A stretch of 44,071 nucleotides of DNA from a virus. Below are positions 11,704 through 15,312 of the stretch, piece after piece. The stretch lies in IMG/VR virus record IMGVR_UViG_3300028812_000007, positions 1 to 44,071 of that record. One strand, given 5' to 3'. Within the stretch, counting starts at the first letter, position 1; every line of letters begins with the position of its first letter. A model generated the notes under the pieces. It was not told where the DNA came from, searched no databases, and worked only from the letters and a program-made list of their open reading frames with translations. The position numbers and the translations under genes are program-made.

Positions 11704-12795
11704 ATGGCGAAAGCGAAGAAGAACAGCCAGATCAGCGGGCTGCCGGAAGGCGTATATTTTAACCTGCCCTTCGACGACTATCACAACGACCCGGCGCTGG
11801 GCTCAGGTGACTTGCGCGCGCTCAGAAAGAGCGCGCCGGACTATTGGTATGAAAGCCCGCTCAACCCGCAGCGCGTGCGAAGCAAGACCACGCCGGCCCG
11901 GCTACGCGGGCAGGCCATGCACTCAATGGTGTTAGAAGGCCGTCAGGCGTTTGACGCGCGTTTCGTTTGCGAGCCCACCGGCAGCGATGTGCTTTACACC
12001 ATCGCGGACATGACAGAGTGGCTGAAGGCGCACGGCTCGCTTTTCCCAAAGGGCAGCAAGGCCGAGCTAGCCGCGCTGGTGCAGAAGTTTGCCAAGCGGC
12101 TAAAGCTGAAGAACCCGCCCGTTCTCTATGACGACTTCAAATCCAAGGTTGAGGCCAGCGGCAGGATCATCCTCAACTTCGATGACTATGCGCGCATTTC
12201 AATAGCCAGCGCGATGATTACCAAGAACCCGGAGTTGGCGACAGCCTTCACCGGCGGCGTGTCGGAAGTCTCAGTGTTCTGGCGGCGGTCACCGCAAGAC
12301 CCGATGATGAAATGTCGGTTCGACTATCTGAAGGTCCGCGGGATCGGTGACCTCAAGGCCATCACCAACACCATGGGCGTTGACTTTGGCGAGGCGTGCA
12401 AGAACAACTTTGCGCGCTACCGCTACGACATTCAGGCGGCGCACTACCTTGAAGGCCGCGCCATGCTGCCGCTGCTGGTGCGGGGCGGTCACGTGTTCGG
12501 CAAGCACGATAAAAAGTGGCTAGCCGAGGTGGCAGCCTCGAAAGAGTACGCCTTTGTGTTTGTGTTCTTCCAAGCTGAAGGCGCACCCATCACCGAAAGC
12601 TTCAAGCTGTCACCGCGCAATCCCATTCTCGCCGTTGCTCAGGATGACATTGCCGCGGCGCTGGCGCGCTATCACCAGAGCCTCAACACGTTTGGCCCGC
12701 ACGAAATGTGGGTGCGCATCGCGCCCACCGCTGAGCTAGATATTGGCGAATTGCCCGGCTACTACGGCAGGGCGCAACCCGGAGAGAAGCCATGA
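11704..12795 (+). CDS. RecE/ExoVIII-like PD-(D/E)XK exonuclease
   Basis: A 363-residue nuclease. The N-terminus has the family pattern DDYHNDPALGSGDLRAL followed by SAPDYWY and RGQAMHSMVLEG. The catalytic region has VSEVSVFWRR (Glu), MKCRFDYL (Asp), then GIGDLKAIT, which supplies the D-x-K. A later AAHYLEG completes the motif. Such 5'-3' exonucleases chew dsDNA ends to give 3' tails for a single-strand annealing partner. The next gene overlaps by four bases (ATGA), as expected for an exonuclease and annealing-protein pair. Confidence 0.85.
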   Translation: MAKAKKNSQISGLPEGVYFNLPFDDYHNDPALGSGDLRALRKSAPDYWYESPLNPQRVRSKTTPARLRGQAMHSMVLEGRQAFDARFVCEPTGSDVLYTIADMTEWLKAHGSLFPKGSKAELAALVQKFAKRLKLKNPPVLYDDFKSKVEASGRIILNFDDYARISIASAMITKNPELATAFTGGVSEVSVFWRRSPQDPMMKCRFDYLKVRGIGDLKAITNTMGVDFGEACKNNFARYRYDIQAAHYLEGRAMLPLLVRGGHVFGKHDKKWLAEVAASKEYAFVFVFFQAEGAPITESFKLSPRNPILAVAQDDIAAALARYHQSLNTFGPHEMWVRIAPTAELDIGELPGYYGRAQPGEKP

Positions 12796-13811
12796 GTGAG
12801 AATGAGGGCGACACCACGCGCCAGCAAATAGCCACCCTTGAAGCCGGCCATGAACTGGTGACATTCGAGCGCGCCACCATCGACCAGCAGATAGCCACCG
12901 CCAAGCGCTTTCCGCGCCGGGTGCAGGTGGCTATGGAAAGCATGACCGCGCTGGCCATCATTACGCCTGAGGCCGCGCGCACCATGATCTACACGCTGCC
13001 GCGCTCAGGCAAAGATATTGAAGGCCCGAGCGTGCGGCTGGCAGAGATCATCCACCAGTGTTGGGGCAACGCCCGTGTCAGTGATGGCATCGCCGCCGTC
13101 AATCGCGCGGAAGGCTACGTTGAGGCGTTCGGTGAATTCCACGACCTCGAGACGAACAGCGCCACGCGCACCACCACCCGCCGCCGCATCACTGACAGCA
13201 TGGGCAGGCTCTACAGCAACGACATGATCGTGGTGACAGGCAACGCCGCCCGCTCTATCGCCCGCCGCAACGCCATTCTGGCCGGCGTGCCAAAGGCCGT
13301 CTACATGAAGGCTTACGAGGCTGCCGCTGAGGTGTGCGGCGGCACCATGCAGACCTTGGGCGAGAACCTTGACGCTGCACTGCAAGCCTTCAAGCTGGAA
13401 TACAACATCGAACCGGCGCGCGTGTACGCCGCGCTCGGTATCAGCGGCGAGGCTGACGTTGGCCTGAAGCATATCCGCAAAATGCGCGGCATGTATGCCG
13501 CGCTCAAGAATGAGGAAGCTACGGTGGGTGAGCTATTCAGCCCGCGCACGGCTGAGGCCACCGAAGCTGAGGTGGCCAACCCACTGACCGACGACACTGG
13601 CAAGGGTGACGGCGGCAAGGGCAAGCCGGGCAAGCCCAAGACCGCGGCGCAATACATCGAGCACGCCACCAAGTGGATTGCCGAAGCCAGCAACGAGCCG
13701 GCAGCGCGCCGCCAGTGGCGCGATGAACGCACGTTGCGTGAGGCGTGCGGCGTGTCAGCAAAACAGCGCGAGCCCTTGGAAGCCGCGCTTGAAACCAAGT
13801 TCGCAAAATAG
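12792..13811 (+). CDS. Putative recombination partner / single-strand annealing protein candidate
   Basis: A 339-residue protein of a phage family I recognise by pattern but cannot name with certainty. The core (residues about 75-180) has IEGPSVRLAEIIHQCWGN, VEAFGEFHDLETN, a run of TTRRRITD, and VTGNAARSIARRNAILAGVPK. A charged Gly/Lys linker (about 265-280) leads to a small C-terminal helical domain ending LETKFAK, recalling how annealing proteins carry a C-terminal partner-binding tail. It directly follows the RecE-like exonuclease, the place normally taken by RecT/Redbeta/Erf proteins. The annealing role is inference from context, and no classical RecT motif is seen. Confidence 0.6.
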   Translation: MSENEGDTTRQQIATLEAGHELVTFERATIDQQIATAKRFPRRVQVAMESMTALAIITPEAARTMIYTLPRSGKDIEGPSVRLAEIIHQCWGNARVSDGIAAVNRAEGYVEAFGEFHDLETNSATRTTTRRRITDSMGRLYSNDMIVVTGNAARSIARRNAILAGVPKAVYMKAYEAAAEVCGGTMQTLGENLDAALQAFKLEYNIEPARVYAALGISGEADVGLKHIRKMRGMYAALKNEEATVGELFSPRTAEATEAEVANPLTDDTGKGDGGKGKPGKPKTAAQYIEHATKWIAEASNEPAARRQWRDERTLREACGVSAKQREPLEAALETKFAK

Positions 13812-13969: not shown

Positions 13970-14110
13970 ATGCTGCTGAAGATCATCGCGATGCTGCTGA
14001 CCGCTGCCGCGCTCACCGCCTGCGGCGATGACCGCCGGTCGATCTACGACCCATGCCATGACAACCGCAACGCTGACGCACCTCAGCGGCAGTGCATCAT
14101 TGAGCGGTGA
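13970..14110 (+). CDS. Small phage lipoprotein, 46 aa
   Basis: The product starts MLLKIIAMLLTAAALTAC, a textbook lipoprotein leader with lipobox LTAC (Cys 18). About 28 mature residues follow, with two more Cys (DPCHDNR, RQCIIER). GGGAG lies 8 bases before the ATG. It sits between the recombination-operon terminator and the tmRNA gene, so it needs its own promoter, which I could not place. Tiny lipoproteins of this kind in phages can act in superinfection exclusion or as an outer-membrane spanin, but the evidence is only the leader. Confidence 0.7.
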   Translation: MLLKIIAMLLTAAALTACGDDRRSIYDPCHDNRNADAPQRQCIIER

Positions 14111-14183: not shown

Positions 14184-14189
14184 GATGGT

Positions 14190-14456
14190 GCTGAAGCTTC
14201 AGACGCTAGACCGTCAGGACCCGGGGGCAGTACCCGGCGGCTCCACCGAGTGCCAGCTACGGCGCAAAGCCAGCCTTGCCATGGAAGGGGCGCTGGCACT
14301 CGGCGGGGCCGACATAGGATCGACTGAGGACGAAGGGCTGAGGTTGCACCCGGAGCTACGCCGCCGTTACAGGCCACACCACAACCGCCAACGACAACAC
14401 CGTTGGTTCTCAGGCTCAGGCCCTCGCGGCCTAACTGAGTAGGGGCAGGGCAGCCC
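14190..14456 (+). ncRNA. ssrA: Circularly permuted (two-piece) tmRNA gene
   Basis: Upstream acceptor piece: T-stem CCGGG/CCCGG (14221-14225, 14233-14237) closes loop GGCAGTA. It is followed by acceptor strand CGGCTCC and ACC (14238-14247). Next an intervening hairpin with a perfect 10-bp stem GAGTGCCAGC/GCTGGCACTC (14248-14257, 14292-14301). Then the coding piece begins GGGGCCG at 14305, pairing with CGGCTCC over 7 bp (one G-U), followed by the conserved ACATAGGATCGAC. The tag frame at 14387-14434 reads ANDNTVGSQAQALAA then TAA, with the usual AND start and ALAA ClpXP degron. The stop lies in a hairpin (CTCAG/CTGAG). Order 3' half, spacer, 5' half is the alphaproteobacterial permuted form. 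Genome-encoded 3' end is ACCG, so CCA completion by the host enzyme is expected. The outer ends are approximate. Confidence 0.92.
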
Positions 14457-14467
14457 TCGTAACAGAA

Positions 14468-14492
14468 GGGTGGCGGCACATCACCGCCACCC
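14468..14492 (+). other. Stem-loop after tmRNA coding piece
   Basis: GGGTGGCGG (14468-14476) pairs with CCGCCACCC (14484-14492) over 9 bases with a 7-base loop. No U-run follows. It may be the 3' end structure of the tmRNA precursor or a rho-independent-like pause. A second GC-rich stem-loop, GGCGGCCCGCC with GGCGGGGCCGCC (14583-14615, one bulge), lies further on. The interval 14493-14622 shows no gene. Confidence 0.55.
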
Positions 14493-14682: not shown

Positions 14683-15312
14683 TCAGCGGGCGGCAGCCCA
14701 GCGGGTGCGGCGAACCTTGCGCTTGCCGGCGCTGACGCCATGGGAAAAGCGGGTGCCGTGCTCACGCCCCCCGAATGAGACGTGGTAGTGCGGCGTGCGA
14801 AGGCGGTGGTAGTCATTCGACGCGCCGCCCGGCCAGCCGGCCAGATGCTTGGCGATACAGCCCGGGTTGCCGGCAAGGTCAACCGCGCGGCCTGACGCGT
14901 GCAGGCTCTTGGTGCGGGTGCCGGCCACATAGGTATTGCGCACCGCGCTGATAACGCGGCTTCCGCAATCGGCCACCACCTTGCTGGCGAACGCCGCCAA
15001 CTCAGGCACCACACCCGACAAGCTGACCGAGCGCCTTGCCACCGCCTCAACGTAGCCGGCGATGGTTGGCGCTTCACGGCGCTCACCCGGCTTGTGCGGT
15101 GGCAGTGGTGTACGCACCACCGCAGTGCGCGCCTTGCTCACGCGAGCCAGCTTGCGCTTGTGCGCCTTCTTCCGTTTGACCGAGTGCGCGGCACGCTGGT
15201 GCGAACCGTCAACACAGATCACGCGCCCCTCGTTGGTGTATATGCAAGCCGCCGAAGGTGTAGCCGTCACAAGCAACGCGACAAGCGCGGCGGCCATCTT
15301 AAGTGCTGTCAT
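14683..15312 (-). CDS. Secreted M15-type peptidase (D,D-carboxypeptidase-like)
   Basis: A 209-residue protein. Residues 1-22 (MTALKMAAALVALLVTATPSAA) form a signal peptide. A Lys-rich linker follows, then an M15-like fold with SLHASGRAVDLAG (His 138, Asp 145) and PHYHVSF (His 175/177). These are the zinc ligands of VanY/Hedgehog-type peptidases that cut peptidoglycan stem peptides. The C-terminus is strongly basic. The gene stands alone, has its own promoter and terminator, and lies away from the endolysin cassette. Export through Sec suggests action in the periplasm, perhaps in early wall remodelling or lysis (inference). Confidence 0.75.
   Translation of the reverse strand: MTALKMAAALVALLVTATPSAACIYTNEGRVICVDGSHQRAAHSVKRKKAHKRKLARVSKARTAVVRTPLPPHKPGERREAPTIAGYVEAVARRSVSLSGVVPELAAFASKVVADCGSRVISAVRNTYVAGTRTKSLHASGRAVDLAGNPGCIAKHLAGWPGGASNDYHRLRTPHYHVSFGGREHGTRFSHGVSAGKRKVRRTRWAAAR

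Follow-up and report, generated by a model that had tools for sequence, protein, structure and literature searches.

A circularly permuted, alphaproteobacterial-type tmRNA gene in a phage genome record

Detection and Structure of the tmRNA Gene

The window analyzed here, an entire IMG/VR virus record of 44,071 bases, contains a circularly permuted two-piece tmRNA gene on the + strand at positions 14187-14474, as established with ARAGORN, Rfam and a base-by-base check (Table 1). ARAGORN calls one permuted tmRNA gene (tmRNA*) in the window, and the tag it reports is the one listed in the table. In an Rfam scan of the whole 44 kb, the locus matches RF01849 (alpha_tmRNA) at 104.7 bits (E=1.1e-27) and RF04321 (tmRNA_permuted) at 98 bits (E=5.6e-18), about twice the respective gathering thresholds of 50 and 47 bits; the covariance-model search proposed in a preliminary description of this DNA thus gives a clear positive result. 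Nearby matches to the anti-hemB and P11 families fall far under their gathering scores. Given these E-values and the independent agreement of ARAGORN, the match is far above chance. The preliminary description had assigned the locus to the permuted alphaproteobacterial type, and every element that it named is present, with the acceptor piece preceding the coding piece. Its endpoint at 14456 is too short, because the conserved 3' hairpin continues to 14474, while the Rfam match itself ends at the tag stop codon. At the other end, the gene opens with the P2 helix.

Table 1. Features of the tmRNA locus (window coordinates)
Feature	Position	Strand	Details and basis
P2, outer 5' strand (GGTGC)	14187..14191	+	5/5 standard pairs with 14346-14350; paired in Rfam alignments
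P2, middle 5' strand (CTTCAG)	14197..14202	+	6/6 standard pairs with 14338-14343, one T-G
T arm	14221..14237	+	stem CCGGG/CCCGG, loop GGCAGTA; 5/5 pairs, 14221-14225/14233-14237
3' acceptor strand CGGCTCC (14238-14244) and discriminator A73	14238..14245	+	7/7 pairs with 14305-14311
CCG where CCA is usual	14246..14248	+	encoded 3' end reads ACCG, not ACCA
Spacer	14246..14303	+	perfect 12-bp hairpin 14246-14257/14292-14303; predicted to be removed in processing
Start of coding piece	14305..14324	+	5' acceptor strand GGGGCCG (14305-14311) and D-loop region ACATAGGATCGAC
P2, 3' strands	14338..14350	+	Rfam alignments and pair check
Tag frame ANDNTVGSQAQALAA (14387-14431) and TAA	14387..14434	+	resume codon GCC; ARAGORN, translation
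3'-terminal tmRNA hairpin	14450..14474	+	loop motif AACAGAA at 14461-14467; 6/7 pairs
9-bp GC hairpin adjoining the tmRNA downstream	14468..14492	+	no T run on + strand; function putative

The GGGGCCG that begins the coding piece pairs with the acceptor strand CGGCTCC as had been proposed, forming a fully paired 7-bp stem with a single G:U. That G:U is the third pair, G3:U70, the AlaRS identity pair. At the fifth pair the window has C-G, and the relatives have GC in 86 cases, TA in eight, CG in six and AT in one; relative to the common G-C, both bases have changed and the pairing is preserved. The P2 helix linking the two pieces of the tmRNA is also present, complete in both its outer and its middle parts.

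The tag is readable, as the preliminary description had it: the frame is open, starts with ANDN and ends with ALAA, and TAA follows. An alanine resume codon, the stop codon, the ANDN start and a hydrophobic C-terminus are all present, and the start and end are those of an ordinary degradation-type tag. The base immediately ahead of the resume codon (position -1) is C, as in only 10 of 103 relatives. The AACAGAA motif of the 3' hairpin lies no more than 120 nt past the tag stop in 92 of the 102 permuted tmRNAs compared, and occurs only twice in the window, counting both strands. Read on the - strand, the GC hairpin that adjoins the gene has TTCTGTTACG after it and receives a terminator-like score. 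Upstream of the tmRNA in the window, no promoter-like site was found.

The Spacer Hairpin and the Encoded 3' End

The spacer hairpin had been described as perfect and 10 bp long; it is indeed perfect, but measures 12 bp, and is one of four perfect 12-bp inverted repeats with loops of 15-60 nt in the window. Its first three bases are the CCG of the encoded 3' end, which is therefore paired in the precursor. An encoded 3' CCA is usual in permuted tmRNAs but not universal, and hence not truly defining. A base other than A occupies the final position in 15 of 103 permuted tmRNA genes compared (a set that includes genes fetched by a targeted scan for non-A ends), so the CCG does not exclude membership in the class. 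In established tRNA biology, the CCA-adding enzyme is expected to complete such 3' ends, and the CCG is probably repaired by that of the host.

The CCG end was also considered as a hallmark of this gene. It was found in none of 120 other pattern matches at first, but the targeted scan then yielded five more viral stretches with a non-A base, and the idea was dropped. The non-A ends from that viral scan include CCG in L203 and CCC in L204 and L205, viral contigs from IMG/VR whose permuted tmRNAs, like the window gene, lack an encoded final A. Their tags (ANDNIVPGRLALAA and ANDNQLVGQELRLSA/LAA) differ from that of the window gene, and almost no proteins are common to the window and these three in the stretches compared, the only match being a 31% endolysin match in L205. 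Two Bradyrhizobium chromosomal ssrA copies, L246 and L248, also encode CCC.

Phage Setting and Probable Host

Phage genes flank the tmRNA on either side. The record encodes head and packaging proteins (terminase subunits, portal, head protease, and decoration and major head proteins), tail and lysis proteins (sheath, baseplate, tape measure and endolysin) and proteins of DNA metabolism (helicase-primase, a RuvC-like resolvase and exonuclease VIII), and is that of a contractile-tailed phage. Located 14.2 kb into the 44 kb, the tmRNA has exonuclease/recombination genes (11704-13811) on one side and, from 17886 on, late genes including endolysin and tail genes on the other. It closes a + strand stretch containing the exonuclease and its neighbor, and convergent - strand genes come next. 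Neither a tyrosine integrase nor SmpB was found in the record.

Two unassigned open reading frames are located nearby. Directly upstream of the tmRNA, a 46-aa frame (13970-14110) resembles a small lipoprotein (MLLKIIAMLLTAAALTACGDDR...), and on the - strand a 209-aa frame (14683-15312) has what looks like a signal peptide, as well as residues that hint at a D-Ala-D-Ala-carboxypeptidase-like (M15) enzyme. Neither has a PHROGs match.

Prophages of Bradyrhizobium, Bosea, Rhizobium and Kaistia are among the sources of sheath relatives (53-62% identity), and the relatives from named genomes comprise, among others, rhizobial prophages, chiefly of Bradyrhizobium. The nearest terminase belongs to a Paracoccus phage. 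On the basis of these prophage hosts and this terminase, the host is probably a hyphomicrobial alphaproteobacterium.

One further IMG/VR contig (3300033551_000044) is 100% identical to window positions 24046-44071, a span of 20 kb, and extends 321 bases past the right end of the window, which is therefore not a complete genome. This contig was considered as a second copy of the tmRNA and set aside; it begins inside the tail region and stops short of 14 kb.

Relatives and Origin of the Gene

The window copy forms a long lone branch, part of no supported set, in a tree built from 91 permuted tmRNAs. Its highest identity to any sequence compared is 68%, to L205 over 150 columns. Recent capture from any of the hosts sampled was rejected on this identity and on the long branch without a supported partner. 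The canonical ssrA genes of Bradyrhizobium carry, in most copies, the tag ANDN(F/Y)APVAQAA, so that chromosomal tags in this genus mostly end in VAQAA, whereas the window tag ends in ALAA. In Bradyrhizobium erythrophlei GAS478 (L254) and Bradyrhizobium sp. SRL28 (L255), a second, divergent permuted tmRNA is present beside the canonical copy, scoring 158-159 bits, with the tag ANDNVALNEVRLAA and an encoded CCT end; in GAS478, this second copy has an integrase-like ORF about 1 kb away.

Among viral relatives of the phage, 32 records (31 found via the sheath and one via the protein encoded at 12792-13811), many of them fragments, contain no permuted tmRNA, and the gene is therefore taken to be accessory in this lineage. 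A separate set of 32 records that do carry the tmRNA signature (31 IMG/VR contigs and phage RcRudolph) was searched for SmpB, which was absent from all of them. A Terminase_6N match confirms the phage identity of 12 of these 32. The absence of SmpB from the window and from these carriers fits the use of host SmpB.

Comparison with Known Phage tmRNAs

That phages can carry tmRNA genes is well established (PMC9004378, PMC4131195, PMC11915505). Earlier phage ssrA genes are given in PMC4131195, and 79 unique phage tmRNA sequences are catalogued in PMC11915505. In one survey, 402 of 18,146 phage genomes bear a tmRNA, with 133 unique structures, of which 53 are two-piece, and they are mostly marine or aquatic (PMC9004378). 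tmRNA genes are also reported in virulent Bradyrhizobium elkanii phages (PMC12656738), in a paper in which the word "permuted" is absent. The novelty that the preliminary description saw in a permuted tmRNA within a phage does not hold up: the two-piece gene of phage Melnitz and the 53 two-piece structures were already described (PMC9004378), and the T-arm signature of the window recurs in alphaproteobacterial ssrA and in at least 119 viral contigs from IMG/VR, some of which may be host-derived and about half of which received a full tmRNA call from ARAGORN. The window gene is a fresh example, similar to phage genes described before, and no new sort of thing.

The Methylophilales phage Melnitz and related marine phages resemble the window in having a permuted alphaproteobacterial-type tmRNA with an ANDN...ALAA tag (ANDNYVPVDYALAA in Melnitz). 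However, Melnitz is a marine phage of 141 kb, as opposed to a 44-kb record of a contractile-tailed phage, and is reported to have a glutamine riboswitch at ssrA (PMC9004378), whereas Rfam finds no riboswitch in the window. The T-arm signature occurs in nine INPHARED phage records, and ARAGORN confirms permuted tmRNAs in five phages: the Rhodobacter phages RcRudolph and RcSimone-Hastad, Mesorhizobium phage Cp1R7A-A1, Erythrobacter phage vB_EliS-L02 and Melnitz. The first four share the T-arm and acceptor signature with the window, and the cultured-phage tags ANDNVRMDAQALAA and VAANDNHFEARALAA have the ALAA end in common with it, but these four carriers differ in phage background, and RcRudolph encodes CCA where the window has CCG. 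Only Melnitz has an ssrA annotation; the permuted tmRNAs of RcRudolph (L122), Cp1R7A-A1 (L274), RcSimone-Hastad (L275) and vB_EliS-L02 (L276) are without annotation in GenBank, and in RcRudolph a "hypothetical protein", RCRUDOLPH_61, has been called over the gene. In four viral contigs with permuted tmRNAs (L057, L066, L098 and L112), ARAGORN reports an unusually long tag of 29 aa, ANDNALSNVTFVDFSAPVTAVNEDFALAA, which may be genuine or may reflect an error of frame.

Proposed Function and Alternative Explanations

The phage carries an intact split tmRNA gene of the alphaproteobacterial type, and this gene is real. The favored model, to which we assign a probability of roughly 80%, is that the host processes and charges the phage-borne ssrA product, which would top up ribosome rescue during infection. 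The gene would be transcribed as a single precursor, from which host tRNA-processing enzymes would excise the spacer hairpin between the acceptor and coding pieces, with RNase P acting at GGGG and 3' trimming and the CCA-adding enzyme acting at ...CTCCA. The acceptor stem and P2 would hold the two RNAs together. Host AlaRS would charge the molecule with alanine via G3:U70, and host SmpB would deliver the RNA to stalled ribosomes on broken mRNAs, where the tag A-ANDNTVGSQAQALAA would be added for ClpXP-type proteases of the host. The likely benefit would be extra ribosome rescue that keeps ribosomes free in infection. Against the model speak the missing promoter-like site upstream, the encoded CCG, the C at position -1 and the 32 related viral records in which a permuted tmRNA is lacking. 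That the structure is intact favors trans-translation of the ordinary kind, in which the host supplies AlaRS, SmpB, processing enzymes and proteases, and since the record has neither SmpB nor a tyrosine integrase, trans-translation with host AlaRS, SmpB and ClpXP is most likely.

The gene may instead be an ssrA copy that is decaying or was captured passively, a relic of an integration site or of transduction without function in the phage. This seems unlikely. ssrA often serves as an integration site (PMC11915505), and both the encoded CCG end and the sporadic distribution of the gene, which is missing from the records of 32 relatives, would fit a relic. However, the helices, the tag frame, G3:U70 and the 3' hairpin are all intact even though identity to any relative does not exceed 68%, the acceptor stem has a compensatory pair, and the gene sits inside the phage record with phage genes on each side. 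An origin as an integration-site relic was rejected, given that the gene is whole, not an att fragment, and that no tyrosine integrase was found in the record. That a host ssrA at a provirus edge has been mistaken for a phage gene is extremely improbable: viral contigs can include host flanks, but this gene lies well inside the record, with recombination genes on one side and late genes on the other, and canonical Bradyrhizobium chromosomal copies reach about 306-316 bits when scored along the full model, versus 104.7 here.

Other models grant the gene a function, but not simply one of added rescue. The RNA might compete for host SmpB and AlaRS and so alter tagging and protein fate. An RNA consisting only of a tRNA-like domain, of the kind found in phage DS6A, acts as an inhibitor of tmRNA (PMC4131195), and the C-terminus of the window tag is unlike the mostly VAQAA-ending tags of Bradyrhizobium. 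Against this, the window gene differs from that of DS6A in encoding a full tag, with the ANDN start and ALAA end of a working tmRNA, and such interference is very unlikely. Likewise very unlikely is a model in which the phage tmRNA outcompetes that of the host, the ALAA tag and the host-repaired 3' end retargeting or timing the tagging of stalled proteins in favor of the phage. As for the roles suggested by the preliminary description, rescue at host shut-off or redirected proteolysis would be plausible, and it is conceivable that the changed tag has a role of its own.

Supplemented ribosome rescue thus remains the preferred reading. With this gene, a probable rhizobial contractile-tailed phage joins the carriers of permuted tmRNAs, which in the published survey are mostly marine or aquatic (PMC9004378), and the cultured phages compared here show that permuted tmRNA genes escape annotation in published phage genomes.
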